Assembly: GCF_036188265.1 (NCBI RefSeq)
Contig: NZ_CP108093.1
Location: forward strand, 1 to 64,000
Source of the DNA: Streptomyces sp. NBC_00247
Lineage (GTDB): Bacteria > Actinomycetota > Actinomycetes > Streptomycetales > Streptomycetaceae
Direction: 5' to 3'
Length of the DNA stretch: 64,000 nt
The notes beneath the pieces are model-generated. The model saw only the letters and a list, made by a program, of their open reading frames with translations, was not told the DNA's origin and ran no database searches. Of this stretch, positions 8,813 to 39,346 are shown piece after piece; position 1 is the stretch's first letter; each line of letters begins with the position of its first letter. Both the position numbers and the translations under genes were made by a program.

Positions 8813-11800
8813 TCAGTCGACCGGCGTTCCGTTGGCGTACGTCAAGCGCTTCGGGTACACCTGCTCGAACACCTTCTTGCCGTTCTCGTCCAGCTTGGTC
8901 ATGTACCACTTGATGGAGTCCCATGTGCGGTACTGCACGCGGAGAGCCGCACGGAGTTTGACCATCTCCCAAGCGGTTCCGAAGCCGCCGTCCTGGATGA
9001 GCTTCCAGCTGCTGTCCGTAATCGAATCCCCTCTCTCCAGAAGAAGGGCCAGCGCCTCGTCGGCGTTCTTGGCACCTTCGACCCCGTCCAGGGTCACCGA
9101 GAGCTCCACTTTGGGGTTGGACACGGCTCGCTCCACTCCCACGGTCCAAATGGCGCGCTTTCCCATCCCCATGCTTTCCGGCAGTTCGATGCCGTACAGC
9201 TCCTTGTTGTTGAACGTGCCCCCGCCGACAGCCTTGGCCAGGTCGTCCGAGTAGGGGTTGATTCCGAGGACGACGTGATCGCCGTCCTTCACCAGGTCGG
9301 CGAGGATCCTGGCGCACTTCTTCACGATCCCGTCGCCGGACGCGGCGACGGAGAACGACACGACCCGGAAGGTCGCGATGTCCTCCGCCTCGCACGCCTC
9401 GCCGATCTTCCGGAGGATCCGGCTGATGATGCCGGCGGAGGCTCCCTCGGTCAGGCCGATGGCACGAAGCGCCCGGAAGGCGTCCATGAACCCGATGCCG
9501 GTCTTGAGGGAGGCGTCCAGCGCCGTCACCGCGACTTTGCCCGCCTTGAAGAGCGCGCCGACCGCGAACATGCCCACGACCCAGGCGCAGTCGCCCCAGC
9601 TGCCGCCCTCCATGAACGGATTGATCAGCTTGGCGCAGCCGATGAAGTCGCCGAGCAGGATGTCGATGGGGTCGATGCCCGAGTTGAACTCGACCATCGT
9701 CAGCGTCTGCGACATCCGCTCGGTGCGGGCGTCCGAGACCTCAGGACCGAGGTAGACCGTGTCCGCCTGCGGGCAGCTGCCCGAGTAGGAGCCCGACTCG
9801 GCCAGGCACATGAACACGTCGGAGTGCGACTTGTAGGTGACGTCGGCCGTGATGGTGCAGTCGCCGATGTGGACGATCGGGTTGCAGTTGTCCTTGTCGA
9901 CGTTCTTGGGATCGCCGATGTACTCGACGTGGTCGAGGACTTCCCACACACCACCGATCCCGGTGGTGGCACCCTGCGTGATGTGTTCGGTGTTGTCGGC
10001 CTTCTCGGTGCGGTCGGCGGCCTGCTGGGCCTCGTTCGCGGCGTCCCACGCCCCTTCGGACGCCTTCTCCGCCGCCGTCGCGTCGGTCTCCGCCTGGGTG
10101 GCGGTGTCGCGGGCGCTGGCCGCGTCCTCCTCGGCCTTGGTGGCCGTGGCACGGGCCGAAGCGGCGTCGTGCTCCGCCTCGGTGGCCGCGGCGTCCGCCG
10201 CTGCCGCGTCCGTGGCGGCGTCGTTCGAGGCCGTCCAGGCCCTCACCACGTCCGCGCCCGCCGACTGGACGTAGCCGTCGGCGCGGTTGGCCGACGCCTC
10301 GGCGAGCTTCGCGTCCTTCGCGGCCTGGGTGGCCGACGCCTGGGCCCGCTGGTACGCCTTGGCGGCACGGGCCGCGTCGGCGGCAGCCGCCGCGGACGCC
10401 TGCGCCGCCAGCTTCATGTCCGCCGCTGCCTGGGCTGCGAGGGCCTTGGCCTCCGCGGAGTACCCCTCGGCCATGTCTGCCGTTGCGGTGGCCGCCGCTG
10501 CCTGCTGCTGCGAGACCGTCAGGGCCTGCTGGCCGGTGAGTGTCGCGAACGCGGCCGAGCTGTCGGTCTCCTGGTACGGCGTACCGAGTGTGATCGCCTC
10601 GTTCGCCGGCTTGATCACCGCTGCCGCGGAGTCGCGCGCCGCGAGTGACGACTGCACGGCCGCGAGCGCCTTGCCCGCGGTGACCGCAGCCCATGACGCC
10701 GTCTGCAGCGCCTCACTGCGCGCCGCGGTCGCTTCCTCCTTGGCCTTCTTGGCCGCGGCGGAAGCCTTCTCGGACTGTTCCTTGGCACCCTTGGCGTCGA
10801 GCGCCGCCGCCTCGGAGGCGTCGATGGCCTCGGCCGCCGCGGCGTGGGCCGCCGCGGCGGAACCGACCGCCACCAGGTACGAGGCCCAGGTGGCGTCGGA
10901 CGCCGCCTGGGCACGCGATGCCGCGCCCTGCGCCTTGGTGGCAGCCTCACGGGCGGTGGTGGCCGCGGTCGTAGCCGCGTTCGCCGCCGCACGCGCGTTG
11001 GTGGCCGCCGTCGTCGCCGTATTGGCGGCAGCCCGCGCATCGGTGGCGGCGGCACGAGCGGCCTCTGCCGCGTCCGTGCCATCCACAGCCGCAGCGTGCG
11101 CCTCCAGGGCCGCGGCCTTCGCGCTCAGCGAATCCCGCCGCTGCTCGGCCTCCAAAGCCCTGCCACGGGCGTCGACCGCGTCGCGCTCCGCCTGCTCGGC
11201 GTCACCCCTGCGGGCCGACGCCGTGCTTCCCGCCGCCTCTGCCGAGGTCCGGGCGTCACTGGCGATCCGGCCCTGCGCGGAGGCCTCCGCCTCGGATGCG
11301 GATGCCTTGTCCCGCTCGCTCTCCGCGGTGGCCCGGTAGGCCGCCGCGTTGGCGCGCTCCAGTTCGGCCACGGCGCGCGACGCCTGGGCGTCGGCCGCAG
11401 CCTGGCGTGCGTCCTCCTCCTCCGCCAGGGCGGTTTCCTTGGCCTTCTTGGCGGTCGCGGCGTTCGCCGCGGCCGAGGCCGCGTAGGCATCGGCGCTGTC
11501 GGCCGCCGCCTTCGCCTGTGCTGCGGCCTCCTCCGCGGCGACGCGCCTGAACTCGGTGTTCACCGCGTGCGTCTCGGTCTTCGCCAGGGCGAGCAGCGCC
11601 TCGGACGTCGACACGGTCGCGTTGGCCGCGTTCAGCGACGTCTCCGTCGCCTTCGCGGCGGCCTCGGCGGCCGCGCCGGAGGCGCGGGCGACCTGGACCG
11701 ACTGCTGGGCGTACATCAGGCCCCGGCCGCGCGGGACTTCGGCCGCGTCGGCAATCGCCCAGGCGTCCTCCTGCGCGTCGACGGCCTTCTGCGCGGCGGT

Positions 11801-14800
11801 CTTCGCGGCGGCGGCGTTCGTCTTGGCGGAGGCGGTCAGCGCGGCGATCTTGCCCCGGGCGGTGGCCAGATCGGCCTTGGCCCGGTCGAACAAAGCCTGC
11901 TTGGGCTTGAAGATGTTGTCCGGGTCGTCCTCCAGGGTGTCGTGCCAGACCTGCTGCCAGGTGAGGATCTGCTGGGCGCGCCACGCCTGGCCGATGGCTT
12001 CGACCATGTCGTCGGTGGCCTCGCGCGTGGCGGCCGACGCGTCGGCCTCCGCCTGCGCGATCAGGGTGCGGGGAGCGGCCTGGGCGGCGTACTCCGCCTC
12101 CCACTCGGTGTGCGCCTGCGCGGTCACCGCGGAGAGCTTGTTCCGCGGGTCGGTGGGTTCCGCGCTGTCACAGGTGGCCCAGGACTGCTTGAGGTTCTCC
12201 ACCTCTTCGCGGAACTCCGGGCTGTCCTTGGCCGGGGCCTCGGTCAGGAAACCGCCGTGCCGGAGGTAGGACGCGATGTCGCTACCGGTGGTACCGCCCG
12301 CGTAGCGGGTGTTGGCCACCTCGCTGTCGCGCAGCATCACATCGGCGGTCCAGTCGTACCAGGAGTCCTTGCCCCGGTTGTCCTCGGTGATCTCCTTGGC
12401 GCGCGCGACGGACTCCGCGCCGGCGTTGCTGTGCCCGTCCCAGCCGAGACGGCCGGAGATCTTCTCCTGGGTGAAGAGGGTGAACTGCAGGACCTCTTCG
12501 TCGAATGCCGGTACGTGCCATTCCATGTCGTCGCTGAAGAACGCCGACTCGGCGTACGGCTTGTTGGCCTTCTCCAGCGCGTTCGACCGGGCAGCCAGCG
12601 CGTCCCGGTAGTCGAACGCGGCCTGCACGTCACGGGTGCGTGCCTGGCCGAGCGGTTCGAGACCGATCCATCCGATGTCACCGACGGCCGCGCGCAGATC
12701 GGCATTGGTGCCGGACAGCGCCGTGATGGCCTCGGCCTTCATCTCGGGGCCGCCCGCGTGCAGCGCGACACCTGCGATGCACCGGTCCAGGCGCGCGGTG
12801 CTGCGGGTCGTACCGATCAGCTCGGTGAGTTCGGTCAGCTTGCGCTGGGCGTCGTCGGCGTCGGTGAAGACCTGCTGGATGCCGGCGCTCACCTGCTCGA
12901 TCGCCGCCGCGAGCGCGGGAATCCGGCCGACGACGACGGCGGACGAGGCGATGTCCACCAGGTCCCAGAGGCAGCTCTCGACGCCGCTGTAGCTCAGGCA
13001 CTCCTTGACCTCGGCCACGCCGAGGTCGTCCAGGAGGATCTGCCCGCCGTGGGCCGCGACCCAGTCGAGGACGTGGACGGAGACGGCGGCGTACGCGTCG
13101 CGGTAGTCGTCGACGCAGCTCTGGCCGCACTTGGCCAGCAGGATGGCTTCCTGCTGCTCACCCAGCTCGGCCCACGAGGAGGGGCCGCCCGGGATCGGGT
13201 AGTCGCCCTCCTCCATGGCCTGCTGGTGCTGCTGCTCGTTCTCCTCCCGCTGCTCCTTCTCCGCCTGGTCGGCGGCCTCCTCGGCTGCGGCGCTGTCGCC
13301 GTCGGCGTCCGAGGCGCGGTCCTCGGCCTCCTGGGCGTCCTTGTCCGCCTTGTCGGCCTGCGCCTTGGCCTCCGCGGCGGCCTGGGCCGCCCGGTCGTCG
13401 GCTTCGGCGGCCTTCAGGGCGTCGCGTTCGGCGTCGGTGGCCTCGCGGTCCGCGTCACCGGCGACGGTGTCGGTCGAGTTGGCCGTCTGCTGGGCGCTGA
13501 GCGCGTCGTTGCCCGCCTGCTGCGCGTAGCCGGAGGCCGTGTCGGCGGCCTTCTTGGCGCCTTCCCGGGACACGGCCGCCGCTTGGGCGGATGTCTGGGC
13601 GGTGGCTGCGGCGGTGATAGCACGTGCCGAGTCTCCGGCGGCCTGTGCCGCCGCCTCGGCCGCGACCTTGACATCGCCCTGCGCCTGATCGGCGAGTTGC
13701 TGGGCGTCCTCGGCTGCCTGCTCCGCCTCGGCGGCCTTGGCCGCCGCGGCGGCCGCTTGCTGCTCGGCCACCGTCTTGGACTTCTGGCCGGTCAGCACGG
13801 CGAACGCGGCGGCGCTGTCGCTCTCCTGGTACGGCATACCGAGCGCGACGGCGTCGGCCGATGCGGCCACCGCCTTGGTCGCGCTGTCCCGCGCGGCGAG
13901 AGCCGCCTGCCCGGCCGCGTAGGCGCGGCCCGCGGTGACCGCGGCGGAGTCGACGGCCTGCGCGGCCTCGACCCCGGCCGAAGCGGCCTCGTCGCCGGCC
14001 CGCTTCGCCAGGGCGGATGCCTGGTCCGACGCGGTGGCGGCGTTCTGGGCGCGCAGTGCGGCGTCCCCGGCGGCGTCGAGTGCCTTGGCGGCCTCGGCGC
14101 GGGCGGAGGCCGCGGCGCCGGTCGACGCGAGGTACGCCGACCACGCGGCGTCCGCATCGGCCTGGGCCCGTCCGGCGGCTCCCTCGGCCTTCGTCGCGGC
14201 GGACCGCGCGGAGACCGCAGCGGCCGTCGCGGTCTCAGCCGCGCCGCGGGCGGTGGCCGCCGCGGTGGCGGCATCGGTGGCCGCCTGGTGTGCCTGCTGG
14301 GCGGCGGCGCGGGTCTCCTCGGCCGTGGCCTTGCCGTCGGCGGCGGCGGCCGCCGCCTCCAGGGCGGCGGCGCGGGCCGCGGTGGCCTGCTGCTTCTGCT
14401 GGGCCGCGGCGGCCTTCTCGCGTGCGGCCTGGGCAGCCCGGGCCTTCGCGTCGGCGGCCTCGCGCTTGGTAGCGGCGTCGGTCGCGGCCGTCTTGGCGCT
14501 CGCCTTGGCCGTACCGGCCGCGGCCTGCTGGGTCGCGGCCCTGGTCTCGGCCCCGGCGGCGGTGGTCCGCTGCCGGGCGGCCTCGGCGCGGGAGGCTACG
14601 GCGTTGGCGTACTCCAATTCGGCGGAGGCACGCTGGGTCTGCGCGACGGCGGCCTTCTGACGGGCCACCTCCTGCTTCCCCTTCGCGGCGGCCTCGGCCG
14701 TACCGGCGTCCTTCGCGCTGTCGGCCGCGGCCTTGGCGTTGGTCTCCGCGCTGTCGGCCGCGGCCTTGGCCTGAGCGGCCGCCTCCTGCGCGGCGATCCG

Positions 14801-16243
14801 GCGGAACTCGGTGTTGAGCGCGTGCGTCTCGGTCTGCGCCTTCGCCGCCAGAGTGCGACTGGTGCCGACCGCGGCGTCGGTGGCGTCGCGGGCCGTCCCG
14901 GTGGCCTTGGCGGCCGCTTCGGCCGCCGCCGCCGAGGCGCGGGCGACCTGCACGGACTGCTGGGCGTACATCAGACCCCGGCCGCGCGGCACCTTGGCCG
15001 TGTCGGCGAGGGCCCACGCCTCCTGCTGCGCGGTCGTGGCGCTCGTCGCCGCCGTCTTCGCGGCCGCGGCGTGGCTGTTGGCCGAGGTGGCCAGCTCGTC
15101 GGCCTTCGCCCGGGCGTCGGCGAGGTCAGCCTCGGCCTGCTCGTACAGCTCGGGTTCGGGCTTGAAGAGGAAGTCGGGGTCGTTGGCGAGTTCTTCCGCC
15201 ACGACCTTCTGCCAGGTGAGGATCTGGTCGGCGCGCCAGGCCTGCTGGATGGCCTGGATCATGTCGTCGGTGGCTTCGCGGGTCTCGTTCGCCGCGTCGG
15301 TCTCCGCCTGGATGATCGTGTCGCGCTGGGCCGCCTGCCCGGCGTACTCCAGCTCCCACTCCGCCATGGCGGTCATGACCGGGCCGTTGAGTACGCGGTC
15401 GAAGTCGAGCGGGTTCTGCCAGTCGCAGCCCGCCCATGCCTGCTTCAGGTCCTCCACCACGACCCGGTACTCCGGCGAGCCCTCGGCCGGAGCCTTCGTC
15501 GGCAGGCCGCCGAACTTCAGGTAGGACGCGACGTCGCCGGCGGTGGTGCCACCCGAGTAACGCGTCTCGTAGACGTCCTCGTCACGGAACGACCAGTCGG
15601 CGATCCAGTCGTTGTCGACGTCCTGCCCGCGGTTCTCCTCCATGATTTCACGGACGCGGGCGACCGCTTCGGGACTGGCGTTGGTGTGGCCGTCCCAGCC
15701 GAGCTGCCAGGAGAGCTGTTCCTGGGTGAAGAGGGTGAACTGGAGCACCTCGGAGTCGAACTCCGGTATGTGCCAGTCCATCTCGTCGCTGTAGAAGGCG
15801 TTGGAGGCGAACGGCTTGTTGCCGTCCTCCAGCGCGGTCGACCGGGCGCGGAGGTCGTCGCGGTAGGTGAGTCCGGCCTCCTGGTCCTCGCCGCCGGCGA
15901 GTCCGAGCGGGTAGAAGCCGATCCAGCCGACGTCACCGACGGTGGAGCGCAGTTGCTCGGCGCTGCCCGAGAGGCCCTCGACCGCCTTGGCCTTCATCCG
16001 CGGCCCGCCGGCGTGCAGCGCCACTCCGGCGAGACAGCGGTCCTGCCGCACGGTGTCGCCGATGGTGTTGCGGAAGAGGCCCGTGTCCTCCTCCTGCTCC
16101 GCGCCGGCGGCGGAGGCCGGTACCGCGGTGATGAGACCGGCGAGTACGGCCACGGCCGAGACGAAGGCCGCCCCACCCGTGGCTCTCTTCAGAGTCTGTC
16201 TTCTGCGACGCCGTCTTCTGCCGACGTCCCGGGCCCATGACAT
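8813..16243 (-). CDS. Giant secreted Ala-rich coiled-coil protein, tandemly duplicated, toxin-like C-terminus
   Basis: 2,476 residues. A Sec signal with a poly-Arg n-region ends near residue 46 (VPASAAGAEQ). The body consists of two copies of one long module. Each begins with DRC(L/I)AGVALHAGGP (Asp 68 and Asp 1153), continues through a globular region (GWDGH, YxGGTT, TREATDDM), a PRGRGLMYAQQSVQVARAS motif, and then some 500 residues of Ala/Lys/Glu/Asp heptad-like coiled coil. The copies stay in register: both landmarks are offset by exactly 1,085 residues. After the second coil (about 2085) comes a Cys-containing hydrophobic segment resembling a pre-toxin region, then a compact C-terminal domain (about 2290-2476) with DHVVLGINPYSDDLAKAV, GVERAVSNP and GTAWEM...WDSIKWYM, the pattern of a polymorphic-toxin tip. 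The coils suggest a stalk projecting from the cell. Function is inferred; the duplication is seen directly. Confidence 0.8.
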   Translation of the reverse strand: MSWARDVGRRRRRRRQTLKRATGGAAFVSAVAVLAGLITAVPASAAGAEQEEDTGLFRNTIGDTVRQDRCLAGVALHAGGPRMKAKAVEGLSGSAEQLRSTVGDVGWIGFYPLGLAGGEDQEAGLTYRDDLRARSTALEDGNKPFASNAFYSDEMDWHIPEFDSEVLQFTLFTQEQLSWQLGWDGHTNASPEAVARVREIMEENRGQDVDNDWIADWSFRDEDVYETRYSGGTTAGDVASYLKFGGLPTKAPAEGSPEYRVVVEDLKQAWAGCDWQNPLDFDRVLNGPVMTAMAEWELEYAGQAAQRDTIIQAETDAANETREATDDMIQAIQQAWRADQILTWQKVVAEELANDPDFLFKPEPELYEQAEADLADARAKADELATSANSHAAAAKTAATSATTAQQEAWALADTAKVPRGRGLMYAQQSVQVARASAAAAEAAAKATGTARDATDAAVGTSRTLAAKAQTETHALNTEFRRIAAQEAAAQAKAAADSAETNAKAAADSAKDAGTAEAAAKGKQEVARQKAAVAQTQRASAELEYANAVASRAEAARQRTTAAGAETRAATQQAAAGTAKASAKTAATDAATKREAADAKARAAQAAREKAAAAQQKQQATAARAAALEAAAAAADGKATAEETRAAAQQAHQAATDAATAAATARGAAETATAAAVSARSAATKAEGAAGRAQADADAAWSAYLASTGAAASARAEAAKALDAAGDAALRAQNAATASDQASALAKRAGDEAASAGVEAAQAVDSAAVTAGRAYAAGQAALAARDSATKAVAASADAVALGMPYQESDSAAAFAVLTGQKSKTVAEQQAAAAAAKAAEAEQAAEDAQQLADQAQGDVKVAAEAAAQAAGDSARAITAAATAQTSAQAAAVSREGAKKAADTASGYAQQAGNDALSAQQTANSTDTVAGDADREATDAERDALKAAEADDRAAQAAAEAKAQADKADKDAQEAEDRASDADGDSAAAEEAADQAEKEQREENEQQHQQAMEEGDYPIPGGPSSWAELGEQQEAILLAKCGQSCVDDYRDAYAAVSVHVLDWVAAHGGQILLDDLGVAEVKECLSYSGVESCLWDLVDIASSAVVVGRIPALAAAIEQVSAGIQQVFTDADDAQRKLTELTELIGTTRSTARLDRCIAGVALHAGGPEMKAEAITALSGTNADLRAAVGDIGWIGLEPLGQARTRDVQAAFDYRDALAARSNALEKANKPYAESAFFSDDMEWHVPAFDEEVLQFTLFTQEKISGRLGWDGHSNAGAESVARAKEITEDNRGKDSWYDWTADVMLRDSEVANTRYAGGTTGSDIASYLRHGGFLTEAPAKDSPEFREEVENLKQSWATCDSAEPTDPRNKLSAVTAQAHTEWEAEYAAQAAPRTLIAQAEADASAATREATDDMVEAIGQAWRAQQILTWQQVWHDTLEDDPDNIFKPKQALFDRAKADLATARGKIAALTASAKTNAAAAKTAAQKAVDAQEDAWAIADAAEVPRGRGLMYAQQSVQVARASGAAAEAAAKATETSLNAANATVSTSEALLALAKTETHAVNTEFRRVAAEEAAAQAKAAADSADAYAASAAANAATAKKAKETALAEEEDARQAAADAQASRAVAELERANAAAYRATAESERDKASASEAEASAQGRIASDARTSAEAAGSTASARRGDAEQAERDAVDARGRALEAEQRRDSLSAKAAALEAHAAAVDGTDAAEAARAAATDARAAANTATTAATNARAAANAATTAATTAREAATKAQGAASRAQAASDATWASYLVAVGSAAAAHAAAAEAIDASEAAALDAKGAKEQSEKASAAAKKAKEEATAARSEALQTASWAAVTAGKALAAVQSSLAARDSAAAVIKPANEAITLGTPYQETDSSAAFATLTGQQALTVSQQQAAAATATADMAEGYSAEAKALAAQAAADMKLAAQASAAAAADAARAAKAYQRAQASATQAAKDAKLAEASANRADGYVQSAGADVVRAWTASNDAATDAAAADAAATEAEHDAASARATATKAEEDAASARDTATQAETDATAAEKASEGAWDAANEAQQAADRTEKADNTEHITQGATTGIGGVWEVLDHVEYIGDPKNVDKDNCNPIVHIGDCTITADVTYKSHSDVFMCLAESGSYSGSCPQADTVYLGPEVSDARTERMSQTLTMVEFNSGIDPIDILLGDFIGCAKLINPFMEGGSWGDCAWVVGMFAVGALFKAGKVAVTALDASLKTGIGFMDAFRALRAIGLTEGASAGIISRILRKIGEACEAEDIATFRVVSFSVAASGDGIVKKCARILADLVKDGDHVVLGINPYSDDLAKAVGGGTFNNKELYGIELPESMGMGKRAIWTVGVERAVSNPKVELSVTLDGVEGAKNADEALALLLERGDSITDSSWKLIQDGGFGTAWEMVKLRAALRVQYRTWDSIKWYMTKLDENGKKVFEQVYPKRLTYANGTPVD

Positions 16244-18595: not shown

Positions 18596-18955
18596 ATGAC
18601 CTGGGACGAAGGTGCCACCGTGCGGGTGGCGAGACAGCCGGACGTGTTCGTGATCGGCGTCACCGGCGCCGTCGACCAGGCGGAGCGCGACCTTCTCGCC
18701 GCCGCCTGGCTGGAGGCGGCGGAGGCCGATCTGCCCGCCACGGTGGTCGACCTGTCCGGTGTCACCTTCGGGGACAGCGGGCTGCTCAACGAGTTGCTCG
18801 TGGCGGAGCGCGGACACCGTCTCCGGGGGCGGGCGTTCATCATCGCCGGCCCGCTGCGCCCGCAGGTGCGGCGGCTGTTCACCGTCACCGGAACGCTGGA
18901 GCACTTCGTCGTCGTGGGCACCGCCGGGGACACCCCCGAGCACCACGCGGGCTGA
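18596..18955 (+). CDS. STAS-domain protein (anti-sigma factor antagonist type)
   Basis: 119 residues covering a single STAS domain. VVDLSGVTFGDSGLLNELL contains the D-S-G motif whose Ser is phosphorylated by RsbW-type kinases in SpoIIAA/RsbV proteins. The C-terminus (PQVRRLFTVTGTLEHFVVV) is typical of the family. The ATG at 18596 has a purine-rich leader. It stands 120 bases after the dehydrogenase and faces the partner-switch operon convergently, so it is probably a separate unit. Its cognate kinase is not obvious; the HATPase at 23.9 kb is one candidate. Confidence 0.8.
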   Translation: MTWDEGATVRVARQPDVFVIGVTGAVDQAERDLLAAAWLEAAEADLPATVVDLSGVTFGDSGLLNELLVAERGHRLRGRAFIIAGPLRPQVRRLFTVTGTLEHFVVVGTAGDTPEHHAG

Positions 18956-18995: not shown

Positions 18996-19505
18996 TCAGC
19001 CCGCCGGGCCGCGAACGTCGGACACGGCGAACACCGGCGGAGCCACCGGCACGCCGCACAGGGCGGCCCGCAGCCCGGTGAGCCCCCGGGCCAGCTCCGC
19101 ACGCTGGCCGGCGGACATGCGGTCGATCGCCCCGTTCAGCACCTCGCCGCGCTTCCTGCGCACCTCGGCGAGGTGCGCGTGCCCCTCCGCGGTCAGGTTC
19201 AGCGTCACTTCGCGTCCACTGTGGGGACTGGGCCGCCGTTCGACGAAGCCCACGGACTGGAGCCGGTCGCACAGCCGGCTGAGCGAGGGCGCGGACACGT
19301 TGAGTACGGCTCCGAGCGCCCGCATCCTGATGCCGTTCTCGCGGTCGACGGCGTACATCAGACGGAGTTGCGCCAGGGAGGCGGGGGCGGCCCAGTCCCG
19401 GTCGCGGTTCCGTTCCCAGAGCACGTCGAGCAGTTCCACGATGTCGCCCGCCGCGAACGCCACGTCGGGGGAGCCCGGAGGTGTGACCTCGACGTCGGGC
19501 CTCAT
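18996..19505 (-). CDS. MarR-family transcriptional regulator
   Basis: 169 residues with a winged helix-turn-helix: LAQLRLMYAVDRENGIRMRALGAVLNVSAPSLSRLCDRLQ, then the wing VERRPSPHSGREVTLNLT and a C-terminal dimer helix. It is the last gene of a same-strand run after the STAS gene (56-base gap), so it may be co-transcribed with the phosphatase/B12-sensor/STAS operon. It could be the transcriptional output of that pathway or an autoregulator. Its ligand is unknown. Confidence 0.82.
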   Translation of the reverse strand: MRPDVEVTPPGSPDVAFAAGDIVELLDVLWERNRDRDWAAPASLAQLRLMYAVDRENGIRMRALGAVLNVSAPSLSRLCDRLQSVGFVERRPSPHSGREVTLNLTAEGHAHLAEVRRKRGEVLNGAIDRMSAGQRAELARGLTGLRAALCGVPVAPPVFAVSDVRGPAG

Positions 19506-19561
19506 GGCGTTTCCCCTCTGTTCCCGGTGTCCCCGGGGGCGGGCTGGACGCACCGCGTGCG

Positions 19562-20026
19562 TCAGGCTGTGCCGTCCGGGCCGGTGGGACGGGCCGAGCG
19601 GTTCTGTACGCCCTCGATGGCCGAGGGGGCCTCGTGCGCGGTCTCCGGGGTGGTCCGCCCGGTGCGCCCCGGGGTCCGCTCCGCGTCCATGGAGGTCGTG
19701 GTGAGGTACCCCAGCGTACCGGTGACCTCCAGCAACCGGTCGAGCGCGGCTCCGCGCCCGTCCAAGTGCAGGGCCACGCCCGCCTCGCCGGTCCGTCTGC
19801 GGATCATGATCAGGGCGGCGAGCCCTGAGGAGTCGACGGTTCCCGACGACGCGCAGTCGAGACGGATTTCGCGGGCGTCCGGGTGCCCGGCCAGCAGTTC
19901 CACGACGGTGGCGAGCAGGGTGTCGGCGTTGGTGTGGTCGAGGTCTCCGCGCATCTCCACCCGGACCGCGCCCGGGTCGTCGTACCGCGTGCGGAGCCGG
20001 AAACCTTCGGAGGGTGTCGTCGTCAT
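19562..20026 (-). CDS. STAS-domain protein, coupled to the B12 sensor gene
   Basis: 154 residues. The STAS fold spans about residues 1-115, with IRLDCASSGTVDSSGLAALIMI holding the D-S-S-G site expected to be phosphorylated. A disordered tail rich in Thr/Arg/Pro follows. The ATG overlaps the stop of the B12-binding gene by four bases (ATGA), so the two are translationally coupled. In known partner switches the PP2C phosphatase dephosphorylates such a protein, which then frees a sigma factor from its anti-sigma kinase. No kinase gene lies in this operon. Confidence 0.82.
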   Translation of the reverse strand: MTTTPSEGFRLRTRYDDPGAVRVEMRGDLDHTNADTLLATVVELLAGHPDAREIRLDCASSGTVDSSGLAALIMIRRRTGEAGVALHLDGRGAALDRLLEVTGTLGYLTTTSMDAERTPGRTGRTTPETAHEAPSAIEGVQNRSARPTGPDGTA

Positions 20027-21126
20027 GCGTGCTTTCCGGAGGGAGTGTGCGGACGGAGGGGGGCACCGGACCGGGCGGCCGCGACGCGGAGGTGGTGGGT
20101 GGCGCGGGGGAAGTCCCGGAGCTCCTCGCCCAGCACCTCCAGTGCCGGTACGAGGGAGAGCGCCGGCACTCCGCGGGCGCTCAGGATCCCCCCGGTCCAT
20201 TCGAGGAATCCGGTGAAGAGTTCCGGGTCGTCGGTGTAGAGGGCGACAGCCAGGAAGTCGACGATGTGCGCCACGTCTTCGGCCGTCCGGTCGCGCTGGG
20301 ACTCGGTGTAGTCGCGCGCCCCGGGAAAGCGCTCGTCGAGCCCGACGAGCACCGCCTTGACCAGTTGCGCCTTGCTGCGCACCACCAGGGTGTACTCCTG
20401 GTCGCCGAGGTGCGGCAGATCGTCGATGGGCTGGTGGGCTCGCGGGGTGCGGGAGGTGGAGCCCGCCGCGAGGAGAGCGGCGGCGGAGCGGGCGTCCGGG
20501 GCCCAGGCGTCCGCGCCGAGCAGGCGCGCGTACCGGCCGTCCGCACCGAACGCCGCTCCACCGGCCAGGACCGGGGTGCCGGTCGCCTGGCAGGCGGTGA
20601 TCGCGGTGTGGGCGGCGGGCAGCCGGGTGGCGAGGGAGGCGGACAGGGCCACGGCGGTGGCGCCGGTCCGGTGCAGATGGGCGATCAGGTGCGCGGTGGG
20701 GACCTGGGCGCCGAGATAGTCGACCCGCAGGCCGCGCAGGGTGAGCACCTCGGCGAGGATGCGGGCCGGCAGGGCGTGCCACTCGCCGTCGACGCAGGCG
20801 ACGGTGACCCGGCCGGACGCACCGGACGCGCGGACGGCGCGGGCCGCGCCGCTCCGGGAGACGGCGCCGACGACCCTGTCGTTGATCGCGGTGGCCGCGT
20901 GCTCCTGGGCGACGGTGATGCGGTTGGCGGCCCACTCCATCCCGATCCGGCCCTGGACGGGCACGACGACGTCCAGCAGCACGCTCTCGGCGTGCACTCC
21001 GTCGTGGAGGGCGTCCAGCACGAGGCCGGTTGCGGTGTGCTCGTCGCCTTCCAGGACGGCGTCCCACAGTCCGTCCCGGAGTCGTGTCAGCGGGTGGCCC
21101 GGTGCCCGGCGGGTGGGCGTGCTCAT
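20023..21126 (-). CDS. Cobalamin-binding sensor protein with W-x9-EH photoreceptor-type motif
   Basis: 367 residues. Residues 1-95 form the helical cap domain found over the corrin in CarH/MetH-type proteins and contain W65-x9-E75-H76, the motif typical of adenosyl-B12 photoreceptors. Residues 105-225 are a Rossmann-like B12 domain with E115-x-H117-x-x-P120 (His as lower cobalt ligand), Ser161 and G189-G190 at the canonical spacings. The residue after Trp65 is Ala, where CarH has the His that caps cobalt after light, so the photochemistry, if any, must differ. Residues 235-360 are a helical RsbR-like sensor domain (TAEDVAHIVDFLAVALYTDDPELF). There is no DNA-binding domain. ATGA overlaps link it to the phosphatase before it and the STAS gene after it. 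Confidence 0.82.
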   Translation of the reverse strand: MSTPTRRAPGHPLTRLRDGLWDAVLEGDEHTATGLVLDALHDGVHAESVLLDVVVPVQGRIGMEWAANRITVAQEHAATAINDRVVGAVSRSGAARAVRASGASGRVTVACVDGEWHALPARILAEVLTLRGLRVDYLGAQVPTAHLIAHLHRTGATAVALSASLATRLPAAHTAITACQATGTPVLAGGAAFGADGRYARLLGADAWAPDARSAAALLAAGSTSRTPRAHQPIDDLPHLGDQEYTLVVRSKAQLVKAVLVGLDERFPGARDYTESQRDRTAEDVAHIVDFLAVALYTDDPELFTGFLEWTGGILSARGVPALSLVPALEVLGEELRDFPRATHHLRVAAARSGAPLRPHTPSGKHA

Positions 21127-22763
21127 GCGGTGAACCTCCCACGGGTGTGGCCGTCCACCGCGCTGAGGTGGTGGGTGCGGGGTGCGGCGATGACCACGAC
21201 GGCCATGTCGTCGTGGCGTCCGGCGCCGACCCACTGCGAGGCGAGCATCTGGATGTGCTCGACGATGGCCTCGGCGGGCATCCCCCCGCACCGGGACAGC
21301 GCGTCCCTCAGCCGGTCCTCGCCGAAGAGGCCGTCCCCGAGAGGGCCGCCCCTGGCCTCGGTGATGCCGTCGGTGAACAGCACACAGCTCTCCCCGGGCG
21401 CGAGGACGGCCTCCACCGTCTCGGCCCTGGCCTCCGGGAGCGCCCCCACCAGGGTGCCCCGGGTGGCGGCCTCCTCGACCTCGCCGTCCGCGCGGACGAT
21501 CAACGGGGCGGCGTGCCCGGCGCTGGTCAGCCGCAGCCGCACCGAGGCGGAGTCCCGCACCGCGGAGGCGAGGACGAGGGTGGCGAACCGGGCGTGGTGG
21601 GAATTGAGGAGCGCGCCGTTGAGGAGGTCGATCATCCGCTGGTGGTCGTCGGCCATCGGCAGCAGCGCGTGCAGGGTGTTGCGGATCTTCCCGGTCAGCA
21701 CGGCGGCGTTCAGGCCCTTGCCGCAGACGTCTCCGAGCACGGCGAGGGAGGGTTCGCCCTCGACCGCCGCGGGGTGCACGTCGTAGAAGTCGCCGCCGAC
21801 CCGCTCGGCGTCGCGCGAGGCGCGGTAGCCGCCCGCGTACTCCACTCCGGAGACCTGGTGGAGGACCGGGGGCAGGAGTTCCCGCATCAGGGTCTCGGTG
21901 ATCGAGGCCTGTTCGGCGTACATGCGCGCGGCGGACATCGCCGCGCCCGCGCGGGCGGCGAACAGCCGGGCGAAGGTCTCCTCGTTCCGGCTGAACGCGT
22001 GGTGTTCACCGCGGCGGAGCAGGATGAGGGCCCCGGCCGGGACGCCGTGGCCGGGCAGCGGAGTGACCACGATGGAGCCCACTTCGCCCATGTCCCGCGG
22101 CACCACCCAGGACGGGGCGAGTGCCGGGTCCATCCATCGCGACGGCACGGGCGGGAATCCCTGGAGCGCCTCGGCGAGGCCGGGCACCGTCTCGGGGTCG
22201 ACGCGCTCCCGGGTGAGCGTCGCGGCGCCGCCCCGGGAGCACCGGGCGATCAGCGTGCCGGCGGTGGACGGGGCCACGACCAGAGCGGCGTCCGCCAGGT
22301 GCGCGGCAGCCAACTGGGCGGTCACTTCGGCGCATTTGTCGAGATTGAGCGAGGACAGCAGCCTGTTGGACGCCTCGGTCAGGAAGGCGGTGCGCTCGCG
22401 TTCCCCGCGCAACGCCTCGGTGGCGCGCAGCCGGTCGGTGTCGTCCACCAGCCACCACACCACCCCGCCGTCCTCCTGTCCGGCCGGGTGCGCCTCGAAG
22501 CTCCGGTCGCCGACGGGACCGGCGGCCGTGGCCGGGTCCTTCCCGGCCGGCCGGACGAGGTGCGCGTCCGCCAGCCAGGACGGAACGGCGTCCGTCAGCG
22601 GGGTTCCGGGACGGGCCTCGGGAAAGAGGGCGGCAGCGGCGTCATTGGCCCGCTCGACGGCTCCTCTCGGTCCCACCACCAGGGCGGGGCAGGGAGCCGT
22701 GTTCCAGGCCGGCTCGGCCGAAGCGCTCGCACGGGCGGCAGGCGCCCGGTGTGCGGAAGTCAC
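21123..22763 (-). CDS. PAS/GAF/PP2C (SpoIIE-type) serine phosphatase
   Basis: 546 residues from a GTG at 22763 (a TTG lies one codon upstream). An N-terminal PAS-like domain (about 18-110, with CPALVVGPRGAVERANDAA), a GAF domain (about 130-270) and a linker coil (AARMYAEQASITETLMRELLP) lead to a SpoIIE/RsbU phosphatase (about 320-535). Metal-binding acidic motifs are visible: ERVGGDFYDV, VLGDVCGKG, FTDGITEAR and GRHDDMAVVV. It should dephosphorylate STAS antagonists, most obviously the one encoded two genes downstream. The four-base overlap with the B12 sensor suggests that cobalamin state, and perhaps light, controls its activity. Confidence 0.85.
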   Translation of the reverse strand: MTSAHRAPAARASASAEPAWNTAPCPALVVGPRGAVERANDAAAALFPEARPGTPLTDAVPSWLADAHLVRPAGKDPATAAGPVGDRSFEAHPAGQEDGGVVWWLVDDTDRLRATEALRGERERTAFLTEASNRLLSSLNLDKCAEVTAQLAAAHLADAALVVAPSTAGTLIARCSRGGAATLTRERVDPETVPGLAEALQGFPPVPSRWMDPALAPSWVVPRDMGEVGSIVVTPLPGHGVPAGALILLRRGEHHAFSRNEETFARLFAARAGAAMSAARMYAEQASITETLMRELLPPVLHQVSGVEYAGGYRASRDAERVGGDFYDVHPAAVEGEPSLAVLGDVCGKGLNAAVLTGKIRNTLHALLPMADDHQRMIDLLNGALLNSHHARFATLVLASAVRDSASVRLRLTSAGHAAPLIVRADGEVEEAATRGTLVGALPEARAETVEAVLAPGESCVLFTDGITEARGGPLGDGLFGEDRLRDALSRCGGMPAEAIVEHIQMLASQWVGAGRHDDMAVVVIAAPRTHHLSAVDGHTRGRFTA

Positions 22764-23008: not shown

Positions 23009-23359
23009 GTGAGAAATGTCTGGAGCGGCCCCGTGGCCCTGGACGTGCTGGCCGAGACGGATCCGACCGAGTTCTCGGTGGAGGCTTCCGACGACTCCCT
23101 CGGAACAGTGGACCGCCGTTCCCTCGACCCGGAATTCGACCACCTCGTCGTCGACACCGGTCATTGGAAATTCGGTCGCAGCGCCGCCATTCCCATGGGT
23201 ATGGTCGCGCGGGTGGATGCCGAACACCGAGTGATCACCCTGCTCTGCACGAAGGAGCAGGTGAAGGACGCTCCGCGGTTCGCTCGCGACCAGGACACCA
23301 ACGACCCGGCCTATTTGACGCGCCTGGGCGCCTATTACGCCGGAATCCTGACGCCGTGA
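23009..23359 (+). CDS. PRC-barrel-like small protein
   Basis: 116 residues from a GTG. The centre (HWKFGRSAAIPMGMVARVDAEHRVITLLCTKEQVKDAPRF) resembles a PRC-barrel beta-barrel, a fold that binds small ligands or proteins and recurs in Streptomyces stress genes. No signal peptide or membrane helix is seen. It precedes a STAS gene on the same strand by about 110 bases and may share its promoter. Its function is unknown. Confidence 0.6.
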   Translation: MRNVWSGPVALDVLAETDPTEFSVEASDDSLGTVDRRSLDPEFDHLVVDTGHWKFGRSAAIPMGMVARVDAEHRVITLLCTKEQVKDAPRFARDQDTNDPAYLTRLGAYYAGILTP

Positions 23360-23467: not shown

Positions 23468-23830
23468 ATGACCGGGCGGAAGAGACCGACCAGGGGAACG
23501 GCGTTCCTGGTCCCGGCGGAAGGGTTCGCGCTCGTCCGGGTAAGGGGCGACGCCGACGAGAATTCCGGAGCGCCCGAGTTGGCCGAAGCTCTCGGGACGG
23601 CGTTGCGCGAGGGGAGAGAACGTACTGTGGTGGATCTGTCGGAGACGGAATTCGCGGACTCCGCGGTGCTGCACACCCTGCTCGACGCGCGCGCACGTCA
23701 TGAGCGCGCCGGCGTGAGGCTGGTGCTCGCGGGCCCTTTCCGCACCGCCGTACGTCGCTTGTTCGACGTCACCGGCACGGCGGACGCCTTCGCCATGGCG
23801 ATGAGCGTGGAAGAGGCGGCCACATGCTGA
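23468..23830 (+). CDS. STAS-domain protein (anti-sigma factor antagonist type)
   Basis: 120 residues, essentially a lone STAS domain. The phosphorylation-type loop reads VVDLSETEFADSAVLHTLLDA, where D-S-A replaces the commoner D-S-G and keeps the Ser. The C-terminal FRTAVRRLFDVTGTADAFAM matches the family. The next gene encodes a HATPase of the RsbW type on the same strand, about 65 bases on, so the two are likely an antagonist/anti-sigma pair. Confidence 0.82.
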   Translation: MTGRKRPTRGTAFLVPAEGFALVRVRGDADENSGAPELAEALGTALREGRERTVVDLSETEFADSAVLHTLLDARARHERAGVRLVLAGPFRTAVRRLFDVTGTADAFAMAMSVEEAATC

Positions 23831-23894
23831 AGCCGGCACGACACGCACGGCCCGTCGCCCCGGCGGTGCCGTGTTCCAGGGGGCGGAGGAGTAC

Positions 23895-24326
23895 GTGAGC
23901 AGGGAACATCCGGTGGGCCGCGACGACAGCGGATCCGTCGGCACGGGGCTGCCTCTGCCCGGCGACGCCGCCGCCGCGCGTGCCATCGTGCGTGAGTTGC
24001 TGGACGAGCAGTTCTGCACGCTGGGGGGCATGGACCCGGACGACGTGGTCATCTCGGACGCGATGCTGGTGACGTCGGAGCTCGTCACGAACGCCATCCG
24101 TCACGGGGGCGGGCTCACCGGGTTCAGTGCCCGGCTCAGCGGTGAGGGGCTGTTGCTGGACGTGGCGGACGCCAGTCCCACGGAGCCGCGGACCGTGGCG
24201 CCGGTTCCCGACACCGTACGGGTCGGAGGGTACGGATGGCCGCTGGTGCGGCGGCTCTCCAAGCGGGTCACCATCACCCCGCAGGCACGCGGCAAGAAGA
24301 TCAGCGTGGTCATCACCCTGTTCTGA
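23895..24326 (+). CDS. HATPase_c_2 anti-sigma/serine kinase-like protein (RsbW type)
   Basis: 143 residues from a GTG at 23895, chosen for the GGAGGAG site seven bases upstream. The GHKL N-box is clear (DAMLVTSELVTNAIRHGGG), and GGYGWPLVRRLSKRVTITPQARGKKISVVI forms the G-box and last strands. In partner switching such proteins bind a sigma factor when free and phosphorylate a STAS antagonist with ATP. The DAS...SPTEPRTV loop is also typical. The adjacent STAS gene is its likely partner. No sigma gene is next to it, so its target is elsewhere. Confidence 0.82.
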   Translation: MSREHPVGRDDSGSVGTGLPLPGDAAAARAIVRELLDEQFCTLGGMDPDDVVISDAMLVTSELVTNAIRHGGGLTGFSARLSGEGLLLDVADASPTEPRTVAPVPDTVRVGGYGWPLVRRLSKRVTITPQARGKKISVVITLF

Positions 24327-31646: not shown

Positions 31647-32687
31647 TCAGCGGGAGGCGAGCGCGGACAGCAGGGCGAGCGCCTCGGCCAGACTGGTGGG
31701 CCGCAGCACGCCCTCCGGTTGGTTCCCCGCCCAGCCGGGTCCGGCGAGCACGACGGTCGGGGCCGCGCGGGCCCCGCGCACTCCCCACTCGATGGAGGCG
31801 ATGCGCTGAGCCAGCGGCCGACTGGCCGTCGAACGCCCCTGCGACCAGAGGACGATGCCGGCCGGACCGGTGCGCCGGGCCGCCTCCTCCAGCGCGTCGA
31901 CCGGCAGGGCAGCCCCGAACATCCGTACGGGCAGGCCGCGTTGCGTCAGTCCGGCGGTGAGCGCTTCCAGGGGCAGCGTGTGGTTCTCGTCCGGCGCGCA
32001 GGCGAGCAGGGAGACGGCGGCGCCGCGTGCGGGCGGCGGACCGACGGCGGCGCGGCGGAGAGCGGTGGAGACGTGCCAGGACAAGAGGTGCTCCACCTCC
32101 ACGTACCGCTCGCCGGAGCTCTCCCACCGCCGGCCCACGGCGTTCAGGGTCGGCATGATGACCTCGTCCCAGGCGGCCACCAACCCGTGCCGGTCGATCG
32201 CGCGGGCGAGCTGGTCCTCGACGGCGCGGGCGTCCAGGCGCACGGCCGCCCGTGCGAGACCCCGGGCTTCGGTGCGCCCGCGGCCGACCGGGAGAGCGCC
32301 CGGAGCGGTGGACGGACGGGCCGGGGCGGGGCGCGTCTCCCCGACGGCGCCCGGGGGCGCACCTCCGGCACCCGGCGCGGCGGCGAGCGCGGCGCGGGCG
32401 GCCTCGGCCGGCGGAAGCCCGGCACTGGTGAAGTCGCACATGCGCATGAGGAGTTCGACGTCGCCGGAGGTCCAGCGCCGGTGTCTGCCGCCTTCCCGCT
32501 CGGCGGGCCCGATGCCGTAACGGCGCTCCCAGGAGCGGAGGGTGGTGGGAGCCACACCCAGCAGCCGCGCGACGGCTCCGGTGGTCAGTCCTCCGTCATG
32601 ACCGGCGGGGCGGGGGCGGTTGGTGCCCGGTGCGGCCGTGATCCCGGGGCCCGACGTCTTCGCGTGCCCGCGACTCGATGCGTCCAT
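31647..32687 (-). CDS. litR: LitR-type MerR/B12-binding light regulator
   Basis: 346 residues. An N-terminal MerR helix-turn-helix (about 35-75, TTGAVARLLGVAPTTLRSWERRYGIGP) is joined by a Pro/Ala-rich linker to a B12 cap and a Rossmann-like domain. The B12 lower-ligand motif E234-x-H236-x-x-P239 is present. The cap motif reads W188-x10-E199-H200, one residue longer than the W-x9-EH of CarH. LitR proteins keep carotenoid genes off in the dark. It is divergent from litS, the arrangement expected for direct control of that sigma gene. A TATCGT box six bases before the ATG would allow a leaderless transcript. Confidence 0.88.
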   Translation of the reverse strand: MDASSRGHAKTSGPGITAAPGTNRPRPAGHDGGLTTGAVARLLGVAPTTLRSWERRYGIGPAEREGGRHRRWTSGDVELLMRMCDFTSAGLPPAEAARAALAAAPGAGGAPPGAVGETRPAPARPSTAPGALPVGRGRTEARGLARAAVRLDARAVEDQLARAIDRHGLVAAWDEVIMPTLNAVGRRWESSGERYVEVEHLLSWHVSTALRRAAVGPPPARGAAVSLLACAPDENHTLPLEALTAGLTQRGLPVRMFGAALPVDALEEAARRTGPAGIVLWSQGRSTASRPLAQRIASIEWGVRGARAAPTVVLAGPGWAGNQPEGVLRPTSLAEALALLSALASR

Positions 32688-32693
32688 GCGCCC

Positions 32694-32699
32694 ACGATA
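32694..32699 (-). promoter_or_regulatory. Possible -10 box for a leaderless litR transcript
   Basis: Read on the minus strand, TATCGT ends six bases before the litR ATG, the usual distance from a -10 box to the first transcribed base. There is no good Shine-Dalgarno sequence there. The -35 region is weak, so this is tentative. Confidence 0.35.
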
Positions 32700-32874
32700 C
32701 GACGCAGAAACGATGCATGTTGCCGCGCTGGTGCGGAGCCGGGTTGTCTGGCGCCGATGGAACACCCCGGCTCCGGCGAGCCGTTGGCGTTCCTGGCCGG
32801 GCGGCGGTGCGGTCTTTACGGCCTTCCGCCGCCCGGACTCCGGGCTTCCCGGGTTCCTGAGGAGGAGGACACCG

Positions 32875-33510
32875 ATGACCGCAGTCGACGTACCGGTGGG
32901 GCATCGCGCACCGGAGGGCCTGGTCCGCCCGCCCGCCGAGGAGCGTAGCGAGGACGAGGAGCACGCCGCAGCAGAACTGGCGGATGGACTTCTCCGGGGC
33001 GACGCGGAGTCCTTCGCACGGATCTTCCGTCGGTGGGGAACCCTGGTGCACACGCTGGCCGCGCGTTCCCTCGGCGATTCCCGGGAGGCGGAGGACGTCA
33101 CCCAGCAGGTGTTCCTGGCCGCGTGGCGGGGGCGCGCCGGCTACCGCCCGGAGCGGGGACCGCTGCCCGGGTGGCTGGTCGGCATCACCCGGCGCAAGAT
33201 CGCCGACGCCCTGGCCGCCCGTACCCGGCGCGGCGAACTGGCCTCCGCGTCCGCCGCGCGGGAACAGGTGCGCGGCACCGAGGGAGGCGGGCCGGAGGCC
33301 GTGCTCGACCGGGTCCTGGTCGTCCAGGAGCTGGGCAAACTCCCCGCCGTGCAGCGGCACATCCTCTGCATGGCCTTCTTCGACGACCTCACCCAGGTGC
33401 AGATCGCCGAGCGGACCGGCCTGCCCCTGGGAACCGTCAAGAGCCATGCCCGCCGGGCCCTGGCGCGGATGCGCCGGTCGCTCACGGCGGCCGCGCCGGA
33501 GATGCGCTGA
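32875..33510 (+). CDS. litS: ECF-type RNA polymerase sigma factor LitS
   Basis: 211 residues from the ATG after GGAGGAGGAC. Sigma region 2 spans about 38-105 (ARIFRRWGTLVHTLAARSLGDSREAEDVTQQVFLAAWRG), region 4 about 150-205 (GKLPAVQRHILCMAFFDDLTQVQIAERTGLPLGTVKSHARRALARMR). In S. coelicolor and S. griseus the sigma factor beside litR drives light-dependent transcription of crt and photolyase genes; position and partners here match. The next gene encodes a small zinc anti-sigma protein. Confidence 0.88.
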   Translation: MTAVDVPVGHRAPEGLVRPPAEERSEDEEHAAAELADGLLRGDAESFARIFRRWGTLVHTLAARSLGDSREAEDVTQQVFLAAWRGRAGYRPERGPLPGWLVGITRRKIADALAARTRRGELASASAAREQVRGTEGGGPEAVLDRVLVVQELGKLPAVQRHILCMAFFDDLTQVQIAERTGLPLGTVKSHARRALARMRRSLTAAAPEMR

Positions 33511-33601
33511 CGCGACGTCACCCCGTGAGAGCGCGTGGAAGACCGTCCGAGTGCGTCCGGCCGGTGCCCCCGAGGGGAAGCAGGTCCTGAGGGAGGTGCA
33601 C

Positions 33602-33829
33602 ATGGCGCACCATGTCCACGAGGACGACCTGACGGAACTGGCTCTCGGTCACCGGTCCGCACATGACGGCCCCGTAGTCGCGCACCTGCGCCGGTGCGCG
33701 GACTGCCGAGCCGAGTTCGAAGCGCTCGGGGCCGTGGTGGCGGCCGCCCGCGCGGTGACGGCCGCCGACCTTCCCCTTCCGCCGCCGCAGGGGGTGTGGG
33801 AGGCGATCAGCGCCGAGATCGGTGGATGA
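33602..33829 (+). CDS. Minimal zinc-binding anti-sigma (ZAS) protein
   Basis: 75 residues, preceded by GGGAGGTGCAC. The HxxxCxxC zinc motif is visible as H-LRR-C-AD-C around residues 28-35. The protein is little more than the ZAS domain and has no membrane helix or sensor domain, so it would be a soluble anti-sigma factor for LitS. Zinc release upon Cys oxidation is a known control mode in this family. Short length and overlap with spurious frames make it easy to miss. Confidence 0.75.
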   Translation: MAHHVHEDDLTELALGHRSAHDGPVVAHLRRCADCRAEFEALGAVVAAARAVTAADLPLPPPQGVWEAISAEIGG

Positions 33830-34067
33830 GGGCGGGGCACGCGCGCGCAGAAGCACCTCCGCGCGCGTCCGACGCGCGACACCCACGCGTCGGATGCGTC
33901 CGGGAGCGCTCCGGCTGCGCGAGTATCGGCGGGAGCACCGGTGCGGCCGCGGAGCACGCCACGCGCCGCTGTGACCGGTGCGCCCATGTCCCGCCCGTGC
34001 GCCGTCCCGTGGACGGCAGGAAGCCACCCGCCCGTCCACCTTTTCCCGGAGGAGAGAGCGTCCCCCC

Positions 34068-35315: not shown

Positions 35316-35322
35316 CCGCACC

Positions 35323-37640: not shown

Positions 37641-37856
37641 TCCCCTCCGCCCGGTCCGCCCCGCATCTCGGCCGACCTGCATCCCGGCTGGGCCGGCACA
37701 CGGGGCGGAGAAGGCGCGCGGCGGCTCACCGGGCGGGGGCCGGACCGGTCGATCCGGGCGAATTTCGGGGTGTGCCGGACGAGTTGGGTGTGCCACCGAT
37801 TGAGACGCCCCGCCATCTCTTCCGGGGGCAAAGGAGTATGTCGTTAGGATTCGGCG

Positions 37857-38942: not shown

Positions 38943-38954
38943 GCCCGCATCACG

Positions 38955-39308
38955 GTGGACGGTTGCGCGGATCTTCGGGACGCGGTGGTGACGGCGCTCG
39001 ACTCCAGCGGGCTTGGGCAAGTGGCGGCGGCCCGCCCCGGAGTCGGAGCACACTGGGTGACGCGACAGGCCGGTTCGGCTGCGCACCACGTCATGCAGCA
39101 CCTGCTCCACCGGGCGACATGGGACGCCGACGCGATCCGTGACGACGTACGCGCCTACGTGGTCGAGCACCTGCGCGACACCGAGGCGGTGCTCGTGGTC
39201 GACGAGACGGCCGATCCGAAGAAGGGCACCGCGACCGTCGGCGTCCAGCGTCAGTGCGCCGGCACGGCCGGCCGCGTCGAGAATGCCCAGGTCGCCATCC
39301 ATCCATGA
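38955..39308 (+). pseudogene. IS701-family transposase remnant
   Basis: An open frame of 117 codons whose second half is unmistakable: IRDDVRAYVVEHL, EAVLVVDETADPKKGT, VGVQRQCAGTAGRVENAQVAI. These are the catalytic-core strands of IS701-type DDE transposases including the first Asp (VVDET). Complete enzymes are about 400 residues; here both the N-terminal portion and everything after NAQVAI are missing, with a stop immediately after. I found no clear terminal inverted repeats. It marks an old insertion inside the carotenoid locus. Confidence 0.85.
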
Positions 39309-39346
39309 AGATCACGATCTGCGGCTGGAGTACCAAGAGCTGCCCC

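Follow-up and report, generated by a model that had tools for sequence, protein, structure and literature searches.

A stand-alone photocobilin with a PP2C phosphatase and a STAS protein: a probable light-gated partner switch in Streptomyces

What does a cobalamin-binding protein without a DNA-binding domain sense, and through which partner does it act, when its gene lies between those of a phosphatase and an anti-anti-sigma-type protein? This question is raised by a 64,000-base stretch of Streptomyces sp. NBC_00247 (the window, i.e. bases 1-64000 of the single 7,336,920-base contig NZ_CP108093.1, which is one contig end), where four genes follow each other on the minus strand: those of a PP2C/SpoIIE-type phosphatase (21123-22763, 546 residues), a B12-binding protein (20023-21126, 367 residues), a STAS anti-anti-sigma-type protein (19562-20026, 154 residues) and a MarR-family regulator (18996-19505, 169 residues). 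A preliminary description of the sequence had placed these four genes on one strand and joined the first three by four-base ATGA overlaps, and all four open reading frames as well as both junctions (at 21123-21126 and 20023-20026) were confirmed. The MarR gene starts 56 bp past the STAS stop codon (i.e. without overlap), and the start codon of the phosphatase gene (GTG at 22763) is an uncertain call. The best reading of the locus, which we consider reasonably likely on the sequence evidence, is that of a light-gated partner-switching operon, through which light probably switches a stress-response relay via the sensor, the phosphatase and the small STAS protein. It is favoured because the B12 protein has the motifs of CarH-type photoreceptors without a helix-turn-helix domain, and because in this clade its genomic partner is constantly a PP2C phosphatase, mostly followed by the STAS protein.

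Identity of the B12 protein

The cap motif W65-x9-E75-H76, the lower-ligand motif E115-x-H117-x-x-P120 and Ala66 had all been pointed out in the 367-residue protein, and each of these residues is indeed present. Pfam matches the families B12-binding (E-value 3.5e-15) and B12-binding_2 (1.6e-14), with PF02607 at residues 17-88 and PF02310 at 105-215, and the Pfam scan finds no helix-turn-helix, in agreement with the reported lack of a DNA-binding domain; the NCBIfam model of CarH gives 54.7 bits versus a cut-off of 400. The preliminary description overlooked the C-terminal third of the protein, where a helical domain (residues ~233-353) corresponds, by phmmer alignment, AlphaFold and Foldseek, to the biliverdin-binding photoglobin domain of PMC10979010.

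The best phmmer matches in the Protein Data Bank (PDB) are the structures of SasPcob, the stand-alone photocobilin of Saccharothrix syringae (PDB 8J2W and 8J2X; PMC10979010), at 1.1e-85 (8j2w, residues 17-347) and 1.3e-85 (8j2x, residues 17-350), followed by AbPcob (8j2y, 7.6e-36), by 1y80 as the best non-photocobilin B12 protein (7.8e-10) and by CarH chains (from 1.2e-9). The AlphaFold model, made with 49 sequences (predicted local distance difference test (pLDDT) 90.6, predicted template modelling score (pTM) 0.87), likewise finds 8j2x (3.3e-26) and 8j2w (2.3e-25) as its top Foldseek matches, with a target TM of 0.90-0.91 and 48% identity over 345-347 columns. Trp61, Glu71, His72, His108, His137, Asp270 and Trp296 of SasPcob correspond to W65, E75, H76, H117, H146, D284 and W310, a mapping made by hand via the phmmer alignment (the chain number plus 6 being the number in the paper), so that the bilin contacts Asp270, Trp296 and His137 (the last from the other chain) are all matched in the window protein. 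The nine residues W65, E75, H76, E115, H117, P120, H146, D284 and W310 do not vary in any of 49 aligned photocobilins, an alignment that took in 48 loci hand-picked for spread from a set of 80 loci in named genomes. This named-genome set holds the best 80 of 516 relatives, and is therefore biased to close ones, with the genera Streptomyces, Saccharothrix, Amycolatopsis, Pseudonocardia, Mycobacterium, Actinomadura, Nonomuraea, Kutzneria, Nocardioides and others.

With CarH/LitR proteins the window protein has in common the W-x9-EH cap, the ExHxxP lower-ligand motif and a four-helix plus Rossmann fold, whereas it differs in having no MerR helix-turn-helix, in its extra photoglobin domain, and in lacking the second cobalt-capping His beside the cap Trp (CarH H132), where it has Ala66. 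As a private oddity of this protein, however, Ala66 does not stand: since the same place holds Ala in 77 of the 80 named-genome relatives and Gln in SasPcob, it is a trait of the family. By the defining features that can be tested in sequence and model, the B12 protein is a stand-alone photocobilin, and not a CarH/LitR repressor (no helix-turn-helix, no capping His). It resembles SasPcob in its near full-length match, in the same cap and lower ligand and in the bilin Asp and Trp, whereas the window locus differs by the MarR gene after the trio and by a carotenoid cluster within 15 kb. For the supply of the chromophores, the genome has one heme oxygenase and one corrinoid adenosyltransferase.

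Four outlying Streptomyces photocobilins (L045, L046, L047 and L048; 34-36% identity) have the PP2C gene upstream and keep the B12 motifs, and may not bind bilin, because Phe takes both bilin-contact positions (those of D284 and W310).

The phosphatase partner and the gene order

The phosphatase had been described as a PAS/GAF/SpoIIE protein, of which the SpoIIE part stands (Pfam 1.3e-40), whereas the GAF match (0.0043) does not reach its cut-off and Pfam reports no PAS family; the AlphaFold model (34 sequences; mean pLDDT 85.9, pTM 0.54) does have two alpha/beta sensor-like domains before the catalytic part. The resulting order of a PAS-like and a GAF-like N-terminal domain, a linker helix (259-295) and a catalytic domain (~300-527) is a plausible arrangement, the relative placement of the domains in the model not being reliable. 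The best Foldseek matches of this model are Rv1364c RsbU-RsbW, RssB and other PP2C phosphatases including SpoIIE. A long helix between the GAF-like and catalytic domains occurs in RsbU-type phosphatases too, and it is at this helix that a dimer-monomer change could act.

The metal ligands D325, D345, D465, D518 and D519 are unvaried in all 34 aligned phosphatases, which include 33 hand-picked for spread from the 76 named-genome loci with a PP2C reading frame. Scanned with a text pattern, 12 of these 76 seemed to be without the third phosphatase motif and 53 without the last, but the pattern was too narrow, and the aligned Asp residues do not vary in the 34. The STAS protein (Pfam STAS_2, 2.5e-12; NCBIfam ant_ant_sig, 3.7e-11, under that model's cut-off) has DSSG at residues 65-68, and 67 of 71 STAS proteins of the named-genome loci have the DSxG motif. 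Judged from their sequences, the pair bears the marks of an RsbU-RsbV switch, i.e. intact metal Asp residues and a predicted phosphorylatable DSxG serine.

The neighbourhood was followed in two sets of loci, which have at least four loci in common: the 80 named-genome loci, and 60 loci (mostly 20 kb) from a sample of 150 Streptomyces genomes, 57 of which have photocobilin relatives at E <= 1e-30. The 60 are taken from 63 non-window photocobilin places in that sample, those left out being G112 and G123:C13, with a PP2C match alongside, and G016:C37, a partial photocobilin with none at E <= 1e-50. In 60/60 and 80/80 loci the gene immediately upstream of the photocobilin, on its strand, encodes PP2C, by which a chance neighbourhood is ruled out, and a STAS homologue lies directly downstream of the photocobilin in 41/60 and 71/80. 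The offset from PP2C to photocobilin is -4 in 50/60 and 78/80 loci, and that from photocobilin to STAS is -4 in 68 of 71 named-genome loci; for the named-genome counts the script favoured a -4 start wherever one existed. Among the 150 genomes the phosphatase (E <= 1e-50) occurs in 57, and of the 58 with at least one of the two genes 56 have both. The remaining two are G057, which has only the photocobilin over the cut-offs (immediately upstream of which there is still a partial PP2C match), and G111, which has only the phosphatase. Three loci of Saccharothrix species other than the source of SasPcob (L113, L134 and L151) have the same PP2C-photocobilin-STAS order.

Of the 66 PP2C matches listed, four have no photocobilin match alongside (L222, L223, L224 and L225), and three of their four genomes (all except G111) have a photocobilin beside PP2C elsewhere. 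L222 (in G071) keeps PP2C, STAS and MarR and L225 (in G059) PP2C and STAS, the photocobilin gene being absent from both; in L224 the phosphatase stands with a different STAS protein, closest to the one encoded at 18596 in the window, and in L223 both the STAS gene and the photocobilin gene, which lies between it and PP2C, are broken. Because three of these four loci without an intact photocobilin keep a STAS protein (two of this type, one other) and one also MarR, the pattern fits a core of PP2C and STAS to which the photocobilin would serve as an input module. In L223, in L049 (G064) and in L050 the PP2C gene has a decayed or split photocobilin copy at its side.

The MarR gene and the link to carotenoid genes

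The MarR gene (MarR_2, 4.3e-12) had been counted as part of the set, which does not hold up. It directly follows STAS in only 11/60 and 16/80 loci (a wider count of 13 among the 60 becomes 11 if limited to the place right after STAS), and in a quick tree of 135 photocobilins, from which L049, L050 and four duplicates were left out, the 27 MarR-bearing rows need 7 changes, compared to a mean of 25 and a minimum of 21 in 100 shuffles. All 27 fall in one 39-row group with the window protein at its base (group support 87, not starred). This distribution makes MarR an addition of one lineage and leaves it outside the conserved core. A footprint search for a MarR operator found no palindrome shared by the 16 STAS-MarR gaps of other loci and the window's own. 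The window does have the palindrome GACGCACGCGGTGCGTC at 19547-19563, over the STAS stop codon and ahead of MarR, which is not kept in the 16 other MarR-bearing loci.

The window also has a MerR-B12 regulator (31647-32687), an ECF-like (extracytoplasmic function) sigma factor (32875-33510) and a carotenoid set of lycopene cyclase, methyltransferase, two Amino_oxidase-family proteins, phytoene synthase, polyprenyl synthase and photolyase, which we take to be litR, litS, crt and phr genes in a known Streptomyces arrangement. This stretch (31647-48898), which starts ~9 kb from the photocobilin operon, is likely a light-induced carotenoid island, and its MerR-B12 regulator, read by eye, has a cap spaced W-x10-EH and the lower-ligand motif E-N-H-T-L-P.

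With crtY presence defined as E <= 1e-45, 41 of the 150 genomes have both photocobilin and crtY, 16 only the photocobilin, 32 only crtY and 61 neither (odds ratio 4.9, p 1e-5, in a test that ignores relatedness). The two are on the same contig in 21 of the 41, and within 15 kb in 8 (window included), a distance chosen after the neighbourhoods were known; compared to uniform placement the binomial p is ~3e-12, or ~2e-7 if both were confined to 2 Mb of arms. Not counted as crt-linked were L082, with a litR-like gene at 6 kb, and L177 and L184, with other genes of the window's carotenoid island. To account for the 10 crt-linked rows the tree requires 6 changes, and because the starred branches force at least 5, the linkage of photocobilin and crt genes probably arose several times.

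In G066, G132, G131, G016 and G110 the LitR homologue is far from, or on another contig than, the crt genes near the photocobilin operon, and G027 has only LitR fragments, elsewhere than its photocobilin-linked crt genes; in the window and in G061 both LitR and the photocobilin operon are near crt genes. This pattern of LitR placement is suggestive only.

Mechanism, alternatives and neighbouring genes

SasPcob binds adenosylcobalamin and biliverdin and responds to green light, and to red light with bilin, by going from dimer to monomer, its light state being water- or hydroxide-ligated and not bis-His (PMC10979010). By analogy, the window photocobilin would hold adenosylcobalamin (lower ligand H117, cap W65/E75/H76) and probably also biliverdin (D284, W310), and would form a head-to-tail dimer in the dark, which green light, or red light via the bilin, would turn into monomers by breaking the Co-C bond. 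The lit form would then alter PP2C activity by direct contact, PP2C would dephosphorylate the DSSG serine of the STAS protein, and the unphosphorylated STAS protein would bind an RsbW-type ATPase, thereby freeing a SigB-family sigma factor encoded elsewhere. As possible targets the genome has six SigB-family genes over the cut-off, of which the nearest (85588) lies beyond the window. The candidate cognate kinase, judged by its sequence, is the HATPase_c_2 protein encoded at 23871-24326 on the plus strand (3e-8), an RsbW-like candidate kinase or anti-sigma factor. MarR may be a clade-specific extra output or an autoregulator. The suggestion that the sensor acts through phosphatase and STAS, or with MarR, is supported in part: for a light-gated PP2C-STAS switch as the best reading (constant partner, motifs), and not for MarR as part of the core.

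RsbU/RsbP-RsbV-RsbW partner switches include the YtvA-coupled control of SigB. The window resembles them in a PP2C with a sensor half, a STAS protein with DSxG and an RsbW-like ATPase nearby, whereas its input is a separate B12/bilin protein and the kinase and sigma factor are only candidates. A fuller proposal, which we put forward tentatively and would not expect to hold in every part, is that the phosphatase serves this large actinobacterial clade of stand-alone photocobilins as its natural and obligate effector, i.e. that a green/red receptor with dimer-monomer switching drives a sigma-factor partner switch for photoprotection, beside or replacing LitR at the carotenoid cluster.

Photocobilins exert light control on a fused cyclase, and a photocobilin in trans changed the activity of a separate diguanylate cyclase domain in vitro, while the function of stand-alone ones is called less clear (PMC10979010). 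The preliminary description knew of no described system with this wiring, which has to be corrected, as the same article describes photocobilins and predicts that SasPcob works with STAS, SpoIIE and PP2C proteins, of which it gives no tests; it also analysed Streptomyces sp. M41, and our L148 and L159 come from a strain so named. The photocobilin family and the predicted partner wiring are already known, then, and what is new is the clade-wide constancy of PP2C, the restriction of MarR to one clade and the repeated linkage to carotenoid genes, none of which was found in the open-licence literature (a 2022 photoglobin paper, doi 10.1016/j.csbj.2021.12.022, may have this gene order in its lists). 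A constant, translationally coupled phosphatase partner makes the function of a stand-alone photocobilin testable with three proteins. If true, the proposed switch would connect light sensing by B12 and bilin with the control of stress responses by sigma factors in actinobacteria, and would offer a means of optogenetic control, by green and red light, over a protein phosphatase.

Several observations weigh against a light-gated partner switch. The CXQD motif of photoglobins (PMC10151467) is absent, the window protein reading T281-A-E-D284; because SasPcob reads T-L-D-D at the aligned place, and photocobilins are without the bilin-linking Cys according to PMC10979010, this motif is not treated as defining. 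In 19/60 and 9/80 loci these queries detected no STAS gene, and nine outlying Streptomyces loci (L040-L048) show none. Only 20/60 and 25/80 loci have a homologue of the RsbW-like ATPase at 5 kb or less from the photocobilin. Among the matches listed (30 of the 57 photocobilin genomes) no SigB-family gene adjoins the operon; the nearest of these is ~8.5 kb from the partial photocobilin in G016, others on the same contig being at least 100 kb away (distances compared by eye). In addition, when SasPcob lacked biliverdin, light acted through it on a non-cognate cyclase in the opposite direction (PMC10979010), for which reason the sign of the light effect cannot be predicted.

The widest sample weighs on the same side. 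The photocobilin profile matched 43 of 396 genomes across the phylum, and among the 30 loci fetched PP2C is upstream in 11 (the window's own included), downstream in 1 and absent within ~1.5 kb in 18; of the 19 without an upstream PP2C, 8 match the B12 domains only and 11 most of the photocobilin (28-36% identity). Because only 11 of 30 have the upstream gene, the PP2C partner is, as far as these sequences go, a mark of one large clade and not of photocobilins as a whole. A three-gene order conserved across actinobacteria is borne out in the two sets of loci, for PP2C throughout and for STAS mostly, but not phylum-wide. No photocobilin-PP2C fusion was recognised in the reading frames around the phylum-wide matches, in which no dedicated search was made.

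An unlikely alternative is that the photocobilin mainly senses cobalamin or adenosyl-ligand status (i.e. nutrient or redox), with light incidental and the same PP2C-STAS switch as output. Occupancy alone can signal, since the apo, dark-holo and light forms of AbDPcob differ in cyclase activity (PMC10979010), and the 16 of 57 photocobilin genomes without a crtY match would fit such a sensor. A bilin antenna, however, makes little sense in a nutrient sensor, and both bilin contacts are as unvaried in the 49 aligned proteins as the photoreceptor motifs; the linkage to light-protection genes also speaks for light.

AerR is a B12-binding co-regulator acting on CrtJ, and in the same manner the photocobilin could be a light-responsive antirepressor of MarR, with PP2C-STAS as a separate output, which we regard as very improbable. 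The two cases are alike in that a B12-binding protein acts through another protein (PMC9144470), and differ in the bilin domain of the window protein and in its partner, a phosphatase. The position of MarR after the trio on the same strand, in the window and in the 11/60 and 16/80 loci, would suit an antirepressor, as would L058 (in G066), where trio and MarR lie beside crt genes, and the light-inducible carotenoid production of Corynebacterium under a MarR-type regulator (PMC6739363). MarR is confined to its 39-row group, however, whereas PP2C is present in every locus of both sets; it persists in L222 although the photocobilin gene is gone, and the 17 STAS-MarR gaps have no palindrome in common. 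The reading of the B12 protein as a common corrinoid methyl carrier of the MtgC/MtbC type, by chance beside a phosphatase, can be rejected, as its NCBIfam matches (MtgC 1.2e-10, MtbC 1.5e-7) are weak and far under the cut-offs, while SasPcob stands ~76 orders of magnitude above the best non-photocobilin B12 protein in PDB and PP2C is the partner throughout the two sets (60/60 and 80/80).

Divergent genes lie on the other side of the operon, where a 116-residue protein without Pfam match (23009-23359, plus strand) and a second STAS protein (23468-23830, plus strand; DS at 64-65; STAS_2 3.1e-12) precede the ATPase. In L082, L089 and L163 homologues of these three come after the trio and share its strand, which suggests one functional set. 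A third STAS protein (18596-18955, plus strand; STAS_2 3.4e-9) is convergent with the operon and of uncertain membership. Further away, an Ala-rich protein of ~2,450 residues (8813-16243, minus strand) appears to be built of two similar halves.

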